From contig NZ_AP018818.1 in NCBI RefSeq assembly GCF_024349785.1, positions 891,823-955,822 on the forward strand: a stretch of DNA of 64,000 nucleotides, given 5' to 3'. Within the stretch, counting starts at the first letter, position 1. Each line of letters begins with the position of its first letter. Source of the DNA: Sphingomonas bisphenolicum. Lineage in GTDB: Bacteria > Pseudomonadota > Alphaproteobacteria > Sphingomonadales > Sphingomonadaceae. Position numbers and translations under genes: made by a program. Below the pieces are notes generated by a model. That model worked only from the letters and a program-made list of their open reading frames with translations, was not told where the DNA came from and did no database searches. Below, in pieces: positions 10,551-63,890 of the stretch.

Positions 10551-11492
10551 TCAGTTTTGAGGTCTTAAGACGAGGGCGACGCCATTTTCTTCCGTTGCCA
10601 TCACGGCTGTGCCAGCGGGCAGGGCCTGGGTGACGTCATGCCGATTGATCGGGACCGGGTTAGGACTGTTCGGCGCTGGCCCGCGCAGAAAGGTCTTGTC
10701 GTCCAAAACAAGCGTGACATCGATTTCTTCTTCGCTGCGGATGACGATTTGATCTGTCGATATGCTCTTGACGGTGCCGACGACCGGAAGTCGGTCGGAT
10801 CTGCGCACCGCACGAATATCAAGGGACAGGCGGAACCGGTCGGACGTGTTCGAGCGTCCATAATGCGGCATGGTACGGGTAAAGATCACCACGTCGCCAA
10901 GGCGGTAATCGGCCGTGCTCCAACTGTCCTCCGGGATCGGTCCGTCGGTAAAGCCCGCCTTGCCGTCGGCAAATGCCATGTAACCGCGTTTCTCCTGGCC
11001 CGCGGCTATGACCAGGCCGCCGACCTTGTCATCGATATCTGTGAGCGGCATCCAGCAGGTGACGAACTCCACGCCGGGATTGGACATGCCATCCTGATGC
11101 AGGCCTAGATAAGCGTCGGACGTGGCGTTCCTGTTCGGTGCTACGATGCGATAATAATCCATCGGAATCCAGTAAACGGCGTCGTCCAGCACATCCTCGA
11201 AAAACGCGTTGATCCGGGGCTCGCGGACGAACTTCTGCCAGACTTTCCGTTGGTGCAGCGTACGGAAGGTGGCTGGGAAATTCTCGATCGGTCGGCCGTT
11301 CCAGAACGGGTCGGTTGAATCGGCATCGACCAGTTCGAGCGCCTTGAGTTCGCGCATATATTCGTCACGCAATGCGGTCGTCGCCTCCCGATCGAGAACA
11401 TCCCGGAAGAACCAGTAGCCATGCTCCTCCCAGATGCGCGTCAGCGCCTCGCGGTCTCCCAGGGCATGGGTGGAATCCATCAGTTCACGCAC
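10551..11492 (-). CDS. Phytanoyl-CoA dioxygenase-family (PhyH) oxygenase
   Basis: The 313-residue protein fits the non-haem Fe(II)/2-oxoglutarate PhyH family. The iron triad is visible as LHQDG (His and Asp) and a distal His in TMPHYGRSNTS, followed by FRLSLDIR with the arginine expected to bind 2-oxoglutarate. It would hydroxylate a hydrophobic small molecule in the cytoplasm. I chose a GTG start at 11492 because GGGAGAA lies just upstream at proper spacing; the frame runs further 5' (to 11651), but that part is not family-like. The choice leaves a 152-nt divergent control region with the SDR operon, which contains a GAAC-N6-GTTT repeat shared with two other promoters of this island. Confidence 0.75.
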   Translation of the reverse strand: MRELMDSTHALGDREALTRIWEEHGYWFFRDVLDREATTALRDEYMRELKALELVDADSTDPFWNGRPIENFPATFRTLHQRKVWQKFVREPRINAFFEDVLDDAVYWIPMDYYRIVAPNRNATSDAYLGLHQDGMSNPGVEFVTCWMPLTDIDDKVGGLVIAAGQEKRGYMAFADGKAGFTDGPIPEDSWSTADYRLGDVVIFTRTMPHYGRSNTSDRFRLSLDIRAVRRSDRLPVVGTVKSISTDQIVIRSEEEIDVTLVLDDKTFLRGPAPNSPNPVPINRHDVTQALPAGTAVMATEENGVALVLRPQN

Positions 11493-24547: not shown

Positions 24548-25776
<1,229 letters not shown>

Positions 25777-58394: not shown

Positions 58395-58877
58395 TCAGCG
58401 TCGGTTCACGCCTTGAACCTCAGAATCTCCGCCAAGGCGTTCGAGGCCGAGCCAGCGATCGATGGACCAGTCGCCCCCGCCACGGGCGAGCAGAAGGAGC
58501 AGCAAGCCAGCCCAGATAAGATGAGTCGGCCAGGCGTCGGGATAGACAAATATCTCTATCACCAGGGTCATGCCCAGCAAGGCAGCAGCAGCCGGTCGCG
58601 TAAACAGTCCGAGTAGCAGCAGGATCGGGAAAAGATGCTCCGAATAGGTAGCGGCGTGCGCCGCAATCTCCGGCGGCACGAATGGCAAGGCATATTCGGT
58701 CCGGAACAGTTCATAGGTGGAGGGCGCGATGGTCAGCAGGCCCTCCACCTTGGTTCGACCCGACAGGAAGAAGGTGGCGGCGATGCCCAGACGCGCGATC
58801 AGCAGCAGCAGGCTTTCAGGGACCAGCCGGGTCAGCCGACCGCAGCCTTCAGCATAATAGCGCGCAAAGGATGTCAT
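58395..58877 (-). CDS. DoxX-family membrane protein
   Basis: The 160-residue protein has four hydrophobic segments: [54 protein letters not shown] and [24 protein letters not shown] after the first segment is typical of DoxX. DoxX proteins are found in many bufferin operons and may handle thiol or quinone redox state; the role is not settled. It starts 27 nt after bufA1 on the same strand, so both are one transcript from the SigF-type promoter at 59286-59311. Confidence 0.88.
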
Positions 58878-58904: not shown

Positions 58905-59174
58905 TCAAGCCTTGGGCGTCAGCGATCCGAAGCCCTCGGTCGTCTTGATGCTGGTGCAGGTGCCGGCCTTCACCAGCTTCCAGGCGTCGCCCTGATAGGC
59001 GATCCGCGACGTCCCGGCGCAACTGGTGCCGGCGCCGGCCTTGCAGTCATTCTTGCCCGCCTGGGCCACGCCATAGCATTTTTCCATCGGCTTGGCCGGC
59101 GCGGCAGCATGGGCCGCCCCGGTCGTGATCGCGATGGCGAGGGCTGCGGCCAATAGGGCTGGGGTGGACGACAT
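58905..59174 (-). CDS. bufA1: BufA1-type bufferin precursor (DUF2282)
   Basis: The 89-residue protein has a signal peptide (cleavage near AHA) and the DUF2282 pattern with four cysteines at residues 33, 44, 52 and 73: [31 protein letters not shown]2282 proteins are periplasmic metallophore peptides (bufferins) whose cysteines are modified by an MNIO enzyme and which bind copper. The ATG has GGAG upstream. It is separate from the bufB gene, which lies 1.8 kb away on the other strand with a second precursor. A SigF-type promoter lies ~110 nt upstream, with a long leader. Confidence 0.88.
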
Positions 59175-59285
59175 GATATTTCTCCGTTGAAAAGCGTGAT
59201 GGCCTGACATGCGACGGAGCCGTTGTGGACGGCCCCGTCGCACGGCAACCCTGGGAGGCCAAGCGGGCCGGGTTACGGAAGCTTC

Positions 59286-59311
59286 TTCGCGACGGGACGC
59301 AAAGGCGTTAC
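59286..59311 (-). promoter_or_regulatory. SigF-type promoter for bufA1-doxX
   Basis: On the minus strand GTAACG (59311-59306), 16 nt, then CGAA (59289-59286). It matches GTAACC-N16-CGAA except for one base in the -35 element. It faces bufA1 and leaves a ~110-nt leader. Confidence 0.6.
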
Positions 59312-59357
59312 ACATGGCGCTGGAAATGGGAGCGCAGCATTTTTCTGTCGCATCGCT

Positions 59358-59383
59358 GTAACCTTGGGGGCGCTGGCTCCGAA
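59358..59383 (+). promoter_or_regulatory. SigF-type promoter for sigF-nrsF
   Basis: GTAACC (59358-59363), exactly 16 nt, then CGAA (59380-59383), 19 nt before the sigF ATG. It is a perfect match to the SigF promoter pattern known from Caulobacter and implies autoregulation. Confidence 0.8.
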
Positions 59384-59402
59384 TGACTGTTCGGGAGTGC
59401 GT

Positions 59403-59939
59403 ATGCGGGCGAGCGAAGAACAGCTCAGGATATGGATGATCGGCGGTCTCGATGGAGATGCCGATGCCTATACCGCCTTGCTCGGCGCACTCGTCCCGTT
59501 GCTGCGATCCTTTTTCGGACGCCGCTTGCGCGGTGCGGCCGACGATGTCGAGGATCTGGTACAGGAAACATTGATGGCCATTCACACCCGTCGCGGCACC
59601 TATGACAGGACGCGGCCTTTCGTTGCCTGGGCTTATGCCGTGGCGCGCTACAAGATGATCGACCAGTTCCGGCGGAACCGGCACATGGTGCAGATAGAAG
59701 GGCTGGAAGAGATATTGGTTGCAGAAGGGTTCGAGGACGCCTGCGCTGCCCGCATGGATATCGACCGGTTGCTCGGGGGGCTGTCGCCCAAGCAGGCCAA
59801 GGCGATCCGCGACACCAAGGTTGATGGACTGAGCATTGCGGAGGCCGCCCAATCCGCTGGACTCAGCGACGCGGACGTCAAAGTTTCGGTCCATCGGGGC
59901 TTGAAAGCGCTCGCCGCGCGGTTGAGGGGAGACGGCTGA
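59403..59939 (+). CDS. sigF: ECF sigma factor of the SigF type
   Basis: The 178-residue protein has sigma region 2 ([48 protein letters not shown]) and region 4 ([40 protein letters not shown]). It directs RNA polymerase to stress promoters. The ATG at 59403 sits 19 nt after a GTAACC-N16-CGAA promoter. The next gene encodes the cognate NrsF-type membrane anti-sigma, with overlapping stop and start. In Caulobacter the equivalent system responds to chromate, cadmium and copper stress; here five matching promoters lie within 4 kb. Confidence 0.9.
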
Positions 59940-60580
59940 TGCAGACCGACGACCTTATTCGCGCCCTGGCAGGCGATGCGCGCCCGGTCCCGCGCCATGC
60001 GGTGGAACACAGGGTAGGGATCGGCCTGGCCGGCGGCGCGATTGTCACGCTGGCGGCGATGGCCGCGACGCTGGGATTCCGGCCCGATCTGGGCGCCGCG
60101 ATACAGGCTTTCCCTTTCTGGATGAAATGGGCCTATACCCTATCGCTGGGGATCGGCGCGATCGGCGCAACGATCTACTTGGCCCGGCCGGATGCTAGGC
60201 GCGCGCGCTGGCTCTGGTTTCTGGCCCTGCCATTGCTGCTTCTGATGGTTGCCGCCGCAAGCGAGTTGATCCGAACCCCGGTCGAGGGCTGGCTCGCCCT
60301 GTGGCTGGGCCATAGCTGGACGAAATGCTCGATGCTGGTGGCAGGCTTGTCCGTGCCGCTGTTCGTTGGCCTGCTCTGGGCCTTTCGTCGCCTCGCCCCG
60401 ACCCGGTTGCGCCTGACGGGCGCGATGGCGGGTCTGGCGTCGGGCGCCTGTGCGGCAACGCTTTATGGGCTGCATTGTCCGGAGGTGTCCGCCACCTTCG
60501 TCCTTACCTGGTACACGCTGGGCATGGCGCTGGCGACGCTGGGCGGCGCGTTGGCCGGACCGCGTTTCCTGCGCTGGTAG
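59939..60580 (+). CDS. nrsF: NrsF-family (DUF1109) membrane anti-sigma factor
   Basis: The 213-residue protein has six hydrophobic segments and a short cytoplasmic N-terminus ([20 protein letters not shown]), the usual DUF1109/NrsF layout. A cysteine pair is visible in the periplasmic/loop parts (SWTKCSML and LHCPEVS), matching the cysteines that NrsF needs to sense metal. It should hold SigF until metal stress. Its ATG overlaps the sigF stop by 1 nt (TGATG). It is followed at once by the bufA2 promoter. Confidence 0.88.
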
Positions 60581-60587
60581 AGCGGGT

Positions 60588-60613
60588 GTAACCATCGCGC
60601 GGCTCGCGCCGAA
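60588..60613 (+). promoter_or_regulatory. SigF-type promoter for bufA2-bufB-bufC
   Basis: GTAACC (60588-60593), 16 nt, CGAA (60610-60613), 40 nt before the bufA2 ATG. The match to the pattern is exact. Confidence 0.8.
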
Positions 60614-60653
60614 GAACCTATGCCATCCCGGCAATTTCTTCGGAGACTATCTC

Positions 60654-60926
60654 ATGACCAGCATCAAGACCGGCGTCAGCATCGCCACCACCGCCGCGCT
60701 GCTCGCCATCGCCGGCGTTTCGGCCTCCGCGCCTGCCTTTGCGGCCCATGATGCCAAGACCGCCCATTGCTATGGCGTCAATAGCTGCAAGGGCACGTCC
60801 GACTGCAAGACCGCCAAGAACGACTGCAAGGGCATGAACAGCTGCAAGGGTCAGGGTTTCAAGGAAATGTCGGCTGAAAAATGCACCGCCGCCGGCGGCA
60901 GCCTGACCGCGCCTGCGGCGCAATAA
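60654..60926 (+). CDS. bufA2: BufA2-type bufferin precursor
   Basis: The 90-residue protein has a signal peptide (cleavage near AFAA) and a mature part rich in Cys, Lys and Gly with six cysteines at residues 39, 45, 51, 58, 64 and 77: HCYGVNSCKG, SDCKTAKNDCKG, MNSCKGQG, EKC. This fits the BufA2 family of periplasmic metallophore precursors modified by an MNIO enzyme, here bufB directly downstream. It differs from the four-Cys DUF2282 type at 58905. GGAG lies upstream of the ATG, and its own SigF promoter precedes it. A T-tailed hairpin separates it from bufB, which would keep the precursor in excess. Confidence 0.85.
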   Translation: MTSIKTGVSIATTAALLAIAGVSASAPAFAAHDAKTAHCYGVNSCKGTSDCKTAKNDCKGMNSCKGQGFKEMSAEKCTAAGGSLTAPAAQ

Positions 60927-60968
60927 TATCGGCCTTCGCGCTCGCCCCATCATGGCCTGCGCGCTACC

Positions 60969-61003
60969 GAGGCCCGGCTTCGCCCGGCCGGGCCTCTCCT
61001 TTT
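60969..61003 (+). terminator. Hairpin between bufA2 and bufB (attenuator)
   Basis: GAGGCCCGGC (60969-60978) and GCCGGGCCTC (60987-60996) form a 10-bp stem with an 8-nt loop, followed by TCCTTTT. It lies 42 nt after bufA2 and 14 nt before bufB. It may end most transcripts after bufA2. Confidence 0.7.
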
Positions 61004-61016
61004 CCGGAGCGTTTCG

Positions 61017-61859
61017 ATGACCGCCACTCCCATCGCCCCCTTTGCCGGCTTCGGCCTGGGCCTGCGCACGCCGCACTATCAGGATTTCCTGACGAGCGCG
61101 GTGCCGGTCGATTTCGTAGAGGTCATATCCGAAAATTTCATGGTCGATGGCGGGCGTCCCCGCCATATCCTCGATCAGATCCGCGAACGGCATCCGGTGG
61201 CCTTGCATGGCGTGTCGATGTCGATCGGATCGGCCGACGGGCTGGATCGCGCTTATCTGGTTCGCTTGAAAACACTGGTCGACCATCTCGATCCTCTGTT
61301 CGTGTCCGATCATCTGTGCTGGACCCGCATAGAGGGTTTCAACGCGCACGACCTGCTGCCGCTCCCCTACACCGACGAAGCGCTGGATCTGGTCTGCGCC
61401 AATATCCTCCAGGCCCAAGACATGCTGGAACGGCCGATGCTGATCGAAAATCCATCCACTTATCTGCAATTCACCGCCGACAGCATGACCGAATGGCAGT
61501 TTCTGGACGCGATGTGCGCACGCACCGGCTGCGGCCTGCTGCTGGACGTGAACAATATCTATGTCAGCGCGGTCAATCACGGCTTCGATCCCATGGCCTA
61601 TCTCGCCGGCGTACCGGCCGACCGCGTGCGCCAGATCCATTTGGCGGGGCACAGCGAGGGTCGCGACCGGCTGATCGACACGCATGACCAGCCCGTGCCG
61701 CCACCGGTCTGGTCGCTCTATGCCGAAGCGTGCCGCCGGACTGGGCCGGTCGCGACCATGATCGAACGGGACGACGACATTCCCCCGCTCGCCGACCTGC
61801 TAACCGAATTGGACATGGCCCGTGCGATCGCGCCTGTGGACAGGAGGCAGGCGGCATGA
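61017..61859 (+). CDS. bufB: BufB, MNIO-family (DUF692) peptide-modifying enzyme
   Basis: The 280-residue protein has the DUF692 TIM-barrel pattern: [15 protein letters not shown] at the start, [62 protein letters not shown] and MIERDDDIP, which supply the His/Asp/Glu/Asn ligands of a multinuclear non-haem iron site. MNIO enzymes convert precursor cysteines to heterocycles. It should modify BufA2 and perhaps BufA1. Its stop overlaps the bufC ATG. GGAG precedes the start. Confidence 0.93.
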
Positions 61860-62641
61860 GCCTGGCCGCGATGCAGCGCGCCTTCGCCGGATGGCTGACC
61901 GACCGGCCGGGATCTATGACGGCTTGGGTCGACGGCGCGGCGCAAGCAGGGCTGGACGTCTATCATAATGGCTATCGGGTGCGATTGGCCGACTGCCTGC
62001 GCGAGATGTTCGAAAAGACGGCGCTCTGGCTGGGTGAGGACGCATTCATGGCCGTAGCGCGCGCGCATATCGACAATAGCCTGCCCCATGGCTGGACGCT
62101 CGGCGTCTATGGCGACGGGTTTGACCGGACGCTGGCGCGCCTCTATCCCAATGATCCCGAAATCGTAGAACTGGCCTGGCTGGACCATGCGCTGGCCAGG
62201 GCGTTTGAGGGATGCGATGCCGATCCGGTCAGCGCAGAACGACTGGCGGGGGTGGATTGGGATGATGCGTCGTTGATGTTCGTCCCGACGCTCAGGACCG
62301 GACACACGATCACCAATGCTGGCGCGATATGGTCGGCGCTGGCAGCGCAAGAGCAACCGCCAGCGGCCGCCATGCTCTCGCGGTCGAGCGCGATGCTGGT
62401 GTGGCGGCAGGATTTCACGCCCTGTTTCCGCACGATCGAGACGGTCGAGGCCGACATGTTGGCCGAAGCCGTTGCAGGTGCCCGCTTCAGCACATTATGT
62501 GCGTCGCTGATCGATCGGCTGGGCGAGGAAGCGGGGGTGGCAACCGCCGGCGCCCTGCTCGGCCAATGGATCGGCGACGGACTGATCGCCGATATCCATC
62601 AGGCCGGTTCGAACTGCATTGCCACACCGTTCATGCAATAG
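61856..62641 (+). CDS. bufC: BufC, DUF2063-family partner of the MNIO enzyme
   Basis: The 261-residue protein has the HvfC/BufC N-terminal helical domain ([42 protein letters not shown]) and a C-terminal half with [14 protein letters not shown] and [14 protein letters not shown]. In related systems it presents the precursor peptide to the MNIO enzyme. Its ATG overlaps the bufB stop. Its last 43 nt overlap the end of the convergent msrB gene. Confidence 0.88.
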
Positions 62642-63111
62642 CGCAACCCCGTCGGGCGTGGGCCGTCATCGAAGACATGACCCAGATGGCCGGCGCATCG
62701 CGCGCAATGGACTTCGGTTCGCGCGCCACCCAGAGACCGATCGACGCTGGTGCCGATGGCGCGCGGGAGATGATCGTAGAAACTGGGCCAGCCGGTGCCG
62801 CTGTCGAATTTCGTGGTCGATGCATAGAGCGGCAGGGCGCAGCCCGCGCAAAGGAACCGACCCTTGCGATGCTTCTTGTTGAGAGGGCTGGTAAAGGGAT
62901 ATTCGGTCGAAGCCTGCCGCAGCACCGCATAGGCCTGTGGTGAGAGGCGCTTGCGCCATTCGGCCTCGCTGAGCTTGAATGGAGCGGGGGCGGCGGCGAT
63001 CGCTGCCGCGCCATGCGCACTCATCCACTGCCAGGCCAGCGCGCCGATGGCGGCGGTGCCGGTGAAGGCCAGGAAGGAGCGGCGCGAGGATTGGGGTTCT
63101 GTTTGTGTCAT
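62599..63111 (-). CDS. msrB: Exported methionine-R-sulfoxide reductase MsrB
   Basis: The 170-residue protein starts with a twin-arginine-type signal (SSRRSFLAFTGTAAIGALAW), so it is likely periplasmic. The MsrB core has both zinc CxxC pairs (CAGCALPLY and CARCAGHLGHVF) and the catalytic Cys in [18 protein letters not shown] is also typical. It repairs methionine-R-sulfoxide. I chose the ATG at 63111; an earlier frame (to 63147) would cover the promoter. A SigF-like promoter (63120-63145) ends just before the start, so a nearly leaderless message is possible. Divergent from msrA. Confidence 0.9.
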   Translation of the reverse strand: MTQTEPQSSRRSFLAFTGTAAIGALAWQWMSAHGAAAIAAAPAPFKLSEAEWRKRLSPQAYAVLRQASTEYPFTSPLNKKHRKGRFLCAGCALPLYASTTKFDSGTGWPSFYDHLPRAIGTSVDRSLGGARTEVHCARCAGHLGHVFDDGPRPTGLRYCMNGVAMQFEPA

Positions 63112-63119
63112 ATCCCATA

Positions 63120-63145
63120 TTCGTGGGACCGGGCCGAATGGTTTC
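63120..63145 (-). promoter_or_regulatory. SigF-like promoter for msrB
   Basis: On the minus strand GAAACC (63145-63140), 16 nt, then CGAA (63123-63120). It differs by one base in the -35 element from GTAACC. The start codon lies only 8 nt after the -10 element. Confidence 0.45.
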
Positions 63146-63163
63146 AAAAAAATGGACAGGGTC

Positions 63164-63189
63164 GTAACCGTATGTCGATTTGCTTCGTA
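63164..63189 (+). promoter_or_regulatory. SigF-like promoter for msrA
   Basis: GTAACC (63164-63169), 16 nt, then CGTA (63186-63189), 32 nt before the msrA ATG. One base differs in the -10 element. Confidence 0.6.
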
Positions 63190-63221: not shown

Positions 63222-63890
63222 ATGTCCCGCATCTTCCCGGTCGCCGCAGTCCTTCTTGCCGGATCGGCCCTGATCGTCCTCACCAAGCCAGGTGCTGCCG
63301 CCGAGAGGGCTGTTCTGGCACCCGCTGCCGCGACGACCGAGCCGGTGACCGGACATCGCGAAACCGCGACTTTTGCCGGCGGCTGCTTCTGGGGGGTGGA
63401 GGGCGTGTTCTCGCATGTGAAGGGCGTCGTCAGCGCGACGTCGGGCTATGCCGGGGGCGACGCGTCGACCGCCGATTATGAAAGCGTGTCCACCGGCACC
63501 ACCGGCCACGCCGAATCCGTCAGGGTCGTGTTCGATCCGACGCAGGTAAATTATGCGGACCTGCTGCGGATTTACTTTTCCGTCGTGGCGGACCCGACCC
63601 TGCTCAACCGGCAGGGGCCAGACCGGGGAACCCAATATCGATCGGCCCTGTTTCCCGCTTCGCCCGCACAGGAGAAGGTTGCCCGCGCCTATATCGCGCA
63701 ATTGTCGGCCGCCCATGTCTACGCCCGGCCGATCGTGACGCGGATCGAAGGCAATCTCCGCTTCTTCCCGGCCGAAGCCCATCACCAGGACTTCATGGCC
63801 CGCAACCCGACCTATCCTTATATCGTCATGAATGACCGGCCCAAGGTTGAGGCGTTGAAGCGGCTATTCCCCACGAGCTGGAAAGCATAA
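63222..63890 (+). CDS. msrA: Exported methionine-S-sulfoxide reductase MsrA
   Basis: The 222-residue protein has a signal peptide (FPVAAVLLAGSALIVL, cleavage near GAAA) and the MsrA core: ATFAGGCFWGVEGVF with the catalytic Cys (~55), TSGYAGG, GHAESVRVVFDP, and EAHHQDF. It reduces methionine-S-sulfoxide in exported proteins; the signal peptide is unusual for this normally cytoplasmic enzyme. Together with the exported MsrB it covers both sulfoxide forms in the periplasm. It is preceded by a SigF-like promoter and divergent from msrB, so it seems part of the metal-stress island. Confidence 0.92.
   Translation: MSRIFPVAAVLLAGSALIVLTKPGAAAERAVLAPAAATTEPVTGHRETATFAGGCFWGVEGVFSHVKGVVSATSGYAGGDASTADYESVSTGTTGHAESVRVVFDPTQVNYADLLRIYFSVVADPTLLNRQGPDRGTQYRSALFPASPAQEKVARAYIAQLSAAHVYARPIVTRIEGNLRFFPAEAHHQDFMARNPTYPYIVMNDRPKVEALKRLFPTSWKA

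Follow-up and report, generated by a model that had tools for sequence, protein, structure and literature searches.

A predicted SigF-NrsF regulon with a conserved, folded bufA1 leader RNA in Sphingomonas bisphenolicum

We analyzed a 64,000-nt stretch of the Sphingomonas bisphenolicum genome (assembly GCF_024349785.1, contig NZ_AP018818.1, positions 891,823 to 955,822; hereafter, the window), in which genes for an ECF16-type sigma factor (sigF) and its anti-sigma factor (nrsF) lie among genes for bufferin precursors, their modifying enzyme, and methionine sulfoxide reductases. The best explanation of the whole, to which we assign a probability of about 0.7, is that 5.5 kb of this DNA holds an ECF16 SigF-NrsF stress regulon and that the bufA1 message of this regulon carries a leader RNA acting in cis. 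A first-pass annotation had described five SigF-type promoters with constant spacing and read them as one compact regulon; the observation was right, and the interpretation was right in outline for four of the five promoters and is known in kind. The leader RNA, which that annotation did not contain, is the part worth following.

SigF-type sites in the window and their conservation

All five 26-mer sites resembling GTAACC-N16-CGAA were recovered at the coordinates and on the strands first given for them, two of them exact (59358 and 60588) and three with one mismatch (59286, 63164, and 63120). In the following list, a strict site is one that matches GTAAC-N17-CGWA, and counts for sigF, bufA1, and bufA2 refer to sphingomonad loci.

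59358 to 59383, plus strand: predicted SigF promoter of sigF-nrsF; exact GTAACC-N16-CGAA; weight-matrix match; strict site in 45/46 relatives
59286 to 59311, minus strand: predicted SigF promoter of bufA1-doxX; one mismatch (GTAACG); weight-matrix match; strict site in 33/33 relatives
60588 to 60613, plus strand: predicted SigF promoter of bufA2-bufB-bufC; exact; weight-matrix match; strict site in 32/32 relatives
63164 to 63189, plus strand: predicted SigF promoter of msrA; one mismatch (-10 is CGTA); weight-matrix match; strict site in 12 of 16 close copies
63120 to 63145, minus strand: msrB site, GAAAC for GTAAC; one mismatch (GAAACC); strict site at the same place in relatives

Matches with at most one mismatch are not rare: 2.24 are expected in a window of this kind and seven were found, a number reached by none of 100 shuffles, and two of the seven lie elsewhere in the window (19963 and 38791). 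We therefore built an independent weight matrix. For this purpose, 80 loci were fetched with the SigF protein, of which 46 are sphingomonad (L009 to L054); the window's own genome is not among them. The matrix comprises 107 distinct relatives' sites, each the best match upstream of sigF, bufA1, or bufA2 in L009 to L054, with the window left out. When both strands of the window were scored, the five sites ranked first to fifth, at 23.8, 22.1, 19.1, 15.4, and 14.9 bits, and the sixth match scored 8.6 bits.

The constant spacing claimed for the window extends to its relatives: with 15 to 19 bases allowed between GTAAC and CGWA, 17 alone was observed. Over all 80 loci (1.2 Mb), strict sites number 197 versus 15 for the reversed pattern. 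They are also specific to certain genes. No strict site of their own precedes any of 46 nrsF, 32 doxX, 32 bufB, or 32 bufC genes in L009 to L054, and separate promoters for these four genes were accordingly rejected; a partial GTAAC-N15..19-CG match precedes 2/32 doxX and 1/32 bufB genes. Since conserved sites stand upstream of sigF, bufA1, and bufA2 and none stands at the genes that follow, we take them for promoters of the units sigF-nrsF, bufA1-doxX, and bufA2-bufB-bufC. The complete five-promoter locus recurs in L013 and L274, where all five sites are strict.

It is hardly credible that the sites are chance matches in GC-rich DNA. One-mismatch matches are indeed expected about twice per window, but such an origin is contradicted by the matrix ranking, by conservation at a fixed spacing, and by the gene specificity. 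With conservation in relatives found for four of the five sites, in addition to the ranking, we reject it. The sites and their conservation suggest that the genes behind them depend on SigF in this organism.

Few other sites had been expected in the genome. The pattern GTAACS-N16-CGWA, which excludes the msrB site, has nine matches in 5.2 Mb, four of them within this 4-kb stretch; its reversed control has 43. The pattern GTAAC-N17-CGWA has 12, again four of them here, and six of the eight outside the cluster fall inside open reading frames of at least 110 amino acids on one or both strands. One site (C1:357357) is an intergenic GTAACC-N16-CGAA on another contig, before an operon of cytochrome b561 and Oxidored_molyb genes, the latter encoding the genome's only PF00174 protein; another (C2:431770) lies immediately upstream of an AsnC/Lrp gene. 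For the former, 30 loci were fetched from the 52 genomes with the gene. The site is conserved in only 1 of 29 other genomes (G033), which is without NrsF, and for this reason we do not claim the operon as a regulon member; a CGGA form is present in a second genome (G013). The operon is a weak candidate for a further SigF target, and the regulon may not be closed.

Two side observations concern these genes. In relatives (L183 and L300), the pair of cytochrome b561 and molybdopterin oxidoreductase genes sits in SigF modules together with a DUF1223 gene. The sequence GTAACG-N16-CGAA is found directly 5' of an AsnC/Lrp-type gene in L005 (1501 to 1526) and in L023 (minus strand, near the end), and it is conserved in the near relative S. 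cupriresistens.

The msrA and msrB sites

Close relatives of MsrA (64 to 80% identity) were found in 5 of 60 other genomes of the genus and in 9 of 297 other genomes of a family sample, the latter carrying 10 copies; together with a copy from Novosphingobium hassiacum (L013), this gives 16 close msrA copies, 12 of which have the strict SigF site upstream. Near-sites precede the copies of G221 (CGGA) and G390 (one base too long), and no site precedes that of G145 or the second one of G359. Ten of the 16 copies lie 0.1 to about 11 kb from the nearest sigF or nrsF gene, and neither gene was seen within about 9 kb of the remaining six (G142, G221, G323, G390, G145, and the second copy of G359). 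An NrsF gene is present somewhere in all genomes of these six copies except G145. Copies in genomes that lack NrsF or have a distant one only (G145 and G390) show no strict site, and two copies in NrsF-bearing genomes (G221 and the second of G359) likewise show none, although these numbers are small. At the distant paralogue loci that were fetched, a strict, correctly oriented site precedes 3/24 msrA and 0/25 msrB genes.

Where msrB and msrA form a divergent pair, the msrB site is strict in eight of nine relatives, and the ninth has CGCA; the sites of G043 and G298 are identical and count once for independence. In the alignment, the GAAACC of the window's msrB occupies the exact place of the relatives' GTAACC. 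The -35 T that it replaces with A is invariant in the matrix (107/107), and the promoter is therefore read as weak or decayed; from its sequence, msrB is probably a weaker or former member of the regulon. We give an even chance to the stronger statement that msrB has left the regulon, with its SigF site decayed in this species and basal transcription coming from elsewhere. The substitution of an invariant base, at a place that holds a strict site in nearly all divergent-pair relatives, speaks for such a loss, but the remainder of the site is intact in spacing, AACC, and CGAA and still ranks fifth in the window (14.9 bits), and the gene itself is open. The proposal of a single SigF regulon stands, through conserved or recurring sites, for sigF-nrsF, bufA1-doxX, bufA2-bufB-bufC, and msrA; it is weakened for msrB, with its broken -35 element, and the set is perhaps not closed.

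Among the fetched loci, L183 (7659 to 13652) and L184 hold SigF modules in which a divergent msrB-msrA pair lies beside sigF-nrsF, with no bufferin hit in the fetched 19 kb. The module of L183 additionally contains genes for a DUF1223 protein, a methionine-rich peptide (11197 to 11490, minus strand), cytochrome b561, and a molybdopterin oxidoreductase.

A conserved, folded RNA in the bufA1 leader

The leader of bufA1 contains a conserved folded element, new relative to the first-pass annotation and without a database family found. Its parts in the window are as follows.

59198 to 59277, minus strand: 5'-terminal structured RNA of the bufA1 message, 80 nt; covariation, covariance model match of 75.5 bits (the window leader being among the 21 training rows), fold z score of -5.0
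59272 to 59276 with 59245 to 59249, minus strand: helix P1
59231 to 59244 with 59208 to 59221, minus strand: helix P2
59256 to 59260 with 59201 to 59205, minus strand: pseudoknot (GGCCU/AGGCC)

By analogy with EcfF, for which the consulted passages place the start 6 nt after the -10 element (PMC3420878), the bufA1 message would start near 59280. The leader would then be about 106 nt long and the folded element would begin about 4 nt from the predicted 5' end; the leader folds at -51.1 kcal/mol. In relatives, P1 has 5 pairs, P2 has 10 to 14 pairs (bufA1 group), and a GAGGC tail 3' of P2 complements GCCUC in the P1 loop. P2 is a very stable helix whose sequence drifts while its pairing is retained.

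RNAalifold, run on a MAFFT alignment of 21 leader cores that included the window and was not structure-fitted, returned P1 and P2, with double changes in 10 of the 17 pairs. Of 351 helix cells, 98.9% are standard pairs. The covariation score of the helices is 0.450, versus 0.226 (standard deviation [SD], 0.017) for shuffled alignments, none of 500 of which reached it, and 0.07 to 0.13 for slid controls. Compensatory changes in the helices thus exceed both kinds of control. Twenty-four G-U cells would be A-C on the opposite strand, which identifies the bufA1-sense strand as the RNA.

The pseudoknot finds support in the bufA1 group only. In 27 bufA1 leaders, the duplex of loop and tail has a mean energy of -14.0 kcal/mol, versus -9.5 (SD, 0.52) with shuffled tails, -10.4 (SD, 0.49) with shuffled loops, and -12.4 (SD, 0.34) when each loop was given the tail of another locus; none of 200 trials reached the observed value in any of these controls. 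With three plasmid leaders added, GCCUC and GAGGC are both present in 26 of 30 leaders. A pair outside the pseudoknot core is C-G in 8 leaders, G-C in 7, and A-U in 3, so that it is standard in 18 of 26, versus 8.6 (SD, 2.1) after shuffling (0/5,000). In L186, the pseudoknot extends to 10 to 12 pairs. The 5' end pairs well with the ribosome site in Sphingobium-like leaders and poorly in others.

Rfam 15 gave no match at gathering thresholds at the window leader or in seven other loci, and the reading as a known RNA family was rejected on this basis; of three sub-threshold matches in the leader, all far below their cut-offs, one is to 6C (19.1 bits; cut-off, 47; E value, 2.4). No RNA element in bufferin messages was found described in open-licence literature, nor was any paper found that links DUF2282 with a riboswitch.

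Distribution of the leader RNA

Searches with the covariance model, whose E values are rough, covered about 2.0 Mb of sequence, from loci most of which had been selected for their sigF, NrsF, or bufferin genes. The leader RNA is present in 21 of 33 sphingomonad bufA1 leaders (L009 to L054), with a weak match in L024, and also in further genomes, both in bufferin islands and at other loci. Sphingomonas paeninsulae is one relative that has it. Among six plasmid-borne sphingomonad bufA1 loci outside the model, three contain it (L301, L302, and L304; E values below 1e-6). The 34 nonsphingomonad loci L055 to L088 gave no useful match (one match reached 21 bits); three of the loci searched are from Caulobacteraceae (L055, L057, and L058), none has the RNA, and only L058 shows bufA1.

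The RNA is closely tied to the promoter. In 61 of 64 model matches of at least 25 bits, GTAAC-N17-CG[ATG]A lies 7 to 8 nt before the model start, and the remaining three match the model only in part, on the antisense strand of the same places; the matches with a site comprise 42 distinct RNA sequences. This tie is in part a product of the way in which the loci were selected, most of them for the presence of sigF, NrsF, or bufferin genes. The -10 element is CGGA instead of CGAA or CGTA in 5 of 44 promoter-RNA units (L186, L188, L189, L291, and L018, with a common site sequence in L188 and L291); CGRA may therefore be tolerated, and the strict counts may be conservative.

Leaders of this type are not confined to bufA1. 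Thirteen of the sphingomonad sigF loci show no bufferin hit in the flanks that were fetched; in nine of these (L015, L016, L018, L019, L021, L022, L025, L029, and L045), the RNA follows a divergent SigF site and precedes a thiolase gene, the thiolase domains having been checked in L016. A fresh fold of eight thiolase leaders recovered helices P1 and P2; of 23 pairs, 10 are doubly changed.

We also note islands in three genomes (L185 to L189) that contain several bufferin-type genes and, over 19 to 38 kb, between 10 and 14 strict SigF-type sites; in these islands, NrsF genes follow a SigF site with no sigF hit in front. In L311, the Cupriavidus metallidurans DUF2282 leader that follows the site at 1753 (plus strand) is long, and its ends could pair by eye; it has no model match.

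Proposed mechanism and alternatives

In the regulon that we propose, periplasmic stress (in Caulobacter, copper, chromate, and cadmium) would act on the membrane anti-sigma factor NrsF and free SigF, which would then fire the GTAAC-N17-CGWA promoters of sigF-nrsF, bufA1-doxX, bufA2-bufB-bufC, and msrA. Bufferins matured by BufB and BufC would buffer periplasmic metal, and MsrA and MsrB would repair oxidized methionine. The likeliest function of the pseudoknotted RNA heading the bufA1-doxX message is that of a leader acting in cis on the output of bufferin precursor. CCUCC in the P1 loop could pair either with the GAGGC-type tail, which would form the pseudoknot and keep the ribosome site accessible, or with that purine-rich site itself, further downstream; through this choice of partner, precursor output could be set by a signal or a protein, and the 5'-terminal helix would additionally protect the message. 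That the leader is itself a new sensing RNA, which reads metal or an oxidative signal directly, or else the modified bufferin, sets precursor translation, and is stacked with the NrsF sensor, we consider unlikely.

A passive role is possible, if less favored than control in cis: with a helix and a GC-rich hairpin right where the message begins, the RNA would block 5'-end-dependent decay and raise precursor output without sensing any signal. The great stability of P2 and the retention of its pairing while the sequence drifts are in keeping with such a stabilizer, as is the position of the model start; 7 to 8 nt after the -10 element, it would place the beginning of P1 some 4 to 5 nt from the predicted start of the message. 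However, the GCCUC loop and its GAGGC partner are conserved as sequence, both being held by most leaders, and this goes beyond what a plain stabilizer would need.

Alternatively, the RNA could be a SigF-induced small RNA acting in trans, whose CCUCC loop targets the ribosome sites of other messages and for which the gene behind it is incidental. Its presence before thiolase genes fits this proposal, as does the retention of the CCUCC loop in the eight parsed thiolase leaders even though the pseudoknot is not kept. Against it, P2 is not directly followed by a T run in the leaders inspected by eye (TTTT occurs farther along in the leaders of the window and of L023), the islands L186, L188, and L189 keep the RNA with bufA1 and not with sigF, and the pseudoknot strand of L186 and L188 ends within about 2 nt of AAGGAG. 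We regard this proposal as more doubtful still than a sensing RNA. The retention of the RNA at thiolase genes with no bufA1 beside them does leave room for either a plain stabilizer or a trans-acting RNA.

Several further observations weigh against a SigF regulon with a cis-acting bufA1 leader. The regulon in this organism is predicted from sequence, and one of its five sites, that of msrB, lacks the invariant -35 T. In Caulobacter, the consulted passages report that expression of msrA homologues was unchanged and not SigF dependent (PMC3511200). The RNA is absent from 11 of the 33 sphingomonad bufA1 leaders, one more having a weak match only, and the covariance model did not find it in the plasmid bufA1 loci L303, L305, and L306 or, at a useful score, in any of five bufferin loci of Asticcacaulis, Gemmobacter, Stenotrophomonas, Rhizobium, and Cupriavidus; bufferins therefore do not need it. 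In the eight thiolase leaders, the pseudoknot (-11.5 kcal/mol) is no better than with swapped partners (-11.1; SD, 0.6), which argues against one universal switch. The window itself is a poor representative: its tail is CAGGC(C) instead of GAGGC, making it one of the 4 leaders in 30 without the standard core and leaving a pseudoknot of only 5 pairs, and its lowest-energy pseudoknot-free fold closes GGCC on GGCC in the P1 loop, in competition with the pseudoknot. CCUCC can pair with the ribosome site in 15/15 leaders, but any CCUCC would be expected to do so, which makes the evidence weak. The shuffle controls, finally, do not preserve relatedness among the leaders.

The promoter set permits the sphingomonad SigF regulon to be drafted from sequence. 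The leader RNA matters more, as it would add a posttranscriptional layer of control over a metal-buffering peptide, tied to the transcripts of one sigma factor.

Gene content of the locus

The names of the buf and msr genes were assigned from Pfam domains and from the bufferin and SigF papers.

58395 to 58877, minus strand: doxX (PF07681)
58905 to 59174, minus strand: bufA1, Buf1/DUF2282 bufferin precursor with 4 Cys (PF10048; cysteines in alignment)
59403 to 59939, plus strand: sigF, ECF16-type sigma factor (Sigma70_r2 and Sigma70_r4_2; adjoins NrsF)
59939 to 60580, plus strand: nrsF, anti-sigma factor (PF06532 NrsF; E value, 1.6e-71)
60654 to 60926, plus strand: bufA2, Buf2-type precursor with 6 Cys (without Pfam family; six cysteines as in the consulted passages of PMC12452194)
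61017 to 61859, plus strand: bufB, MNIO modifying enzyme, DUF692 (PF05114; E value, 7.1e-113)
61856 to 62641, plus strand: bufC, partner protein, DUF2063 (PF09836)
62599 to 63111, minus strand: msrB, methionine-R-sulfoxide reductase with Tat-like leader (PF01641 SelR; twin-arginine leader by eye)
63222 to 63890, plus strand: msrA, methionine-S-sulfoxide reductase with signal-peptide-like N terminus (PF01625 PMSR; leader by eye)

SigF has sigma regions 2 and 4 only, the DUF1109/NrsF gene adjoins it, and a GTAACC-N16-CGAA promoter stands before the sigma gene itself, all as in ECF16; sigF homologues are present in all 46 sphingomonad loci. Two cysteines of NrsF, Cys130 and Cys180, are conserved in 80/80 aligned rows, the window included; they match OsrA 129/179 by position only. 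The bufferin system consists of a 4-Cys Buf1 and a 6-Cys Buf2 precursor, their signal peptides seen by eye only, with the MNIO enzyme and its DUF2063 partner; if they act as bufferins, BufA1 and BufA2 would form thiooxazoles and bind copper. PMSR and SelR domains, together with export signals that were judged by eye, point to periplasmic repair by MsrA and MsrB. The cluster probably buffers copper and repairs oxidized proteins. The 3' ends of bufC and msrB overlap by 43 bases (62599 to 62641).

Elsewhere in the window, Rfam reports an ALIL pseudoknot at 25379 to 25495 (minus strand, 120.9 bits). ALIL pseudoknots are of a kind found in insertion-sequence frameshift signals.

Comparison with known systems

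In the consulted passages on Caulobacter, the SigF motif is GTAACC-N16-CGAA, and the SigF targets are two operons now recognized as bufferin-type, DoxX, and a YedY-type sulfoxide reductase (PMC3511200); the same set, including MsrPQ, is induced by copper, and a sigF mutant is copper sensitive (PMC8224329). Passages on Bradyrhizobium and Brucella place methionine sulfoxide reductases under ECF16 (PMC3420878 and PMC8315932). As the motif and the bufferin, doxX, and Msr targets have thus been published for ECF16, the window holds a variant of an already known regulon; no open-licence literature linking ECF16 with sphingomonads, or bufferins with methionine sulfoxide reductase, was found.

The window resembles the SigF-NrsF system of Caulobacter in its motif, in NrsF, in combining DUF692 and DUF2063 proteins with DUF2282-type or small precursors, in doxX, and in having a methionine sulfoxide reductase arm. 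It differs in that separate DUF692 and DUF2063 genes belong to each of the two Caulobacter operons, whereas here a single bufB-bufC pair shares one locus with the two precursors, and in that MsrA/MsrB adjoin the locus where Caulobacter has MsrPQ. With EcfF-OsrA of Bradyrhizobium and BcrS-AbcS of Brucella, as far as the consulted passages describe them, it shares an ECF16 sigma factor, a DUF1109 anti-sigma factor with two conserved cysteines, and Msr targets; the published EcfF motif is different, GTAAC(g,a)-N14-15-(c,t)CG(t,a), and bufferins are absent from those passages. Like the bufferin clusters of a survey (PMC12452194, consulted in part), the window combines DUF2282 and 6-Cys precursors, MNIO, DUF2063, DoxX, sigma, and NrsF genes. 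That survey, in the part consulted, has sigma and NrsF genes in Buf1 but not in Buf2 clusters, unlike the window and 32 other loci with a bufA2 hit, where both precursors occur in one SigF locus. The comparison suggests that MsrAB can take the place of MsrPQ as the methionine-repair arm with the bufferin arm retained.

The leader RNA invites comparison with two kinds of RNA. CCUCC-loop small RNAs, namely, 6C RNA and the rhizobial CCUCCUCCC RNAs, expose a C-rich anti-Shine-Dalgarno loop. The leader shares the C-rich loop with 6C; its score is far below the 6C cut-off, and it differs in being a leader on a SigF message with a covarying pseudoknot. In preQ1-II-like H-type pseudoknot riboswitches, a helix is joined by a pseudoknot through its loop, a hairpin is inserted before the 3' strand of the pseudoknot, and the ribosome site lies downstream. 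The leader differs from these in having no Rfam match at gathering and in keeping its ribosome site outside the pseudoknot, but in topology it resembles preQ1-II.

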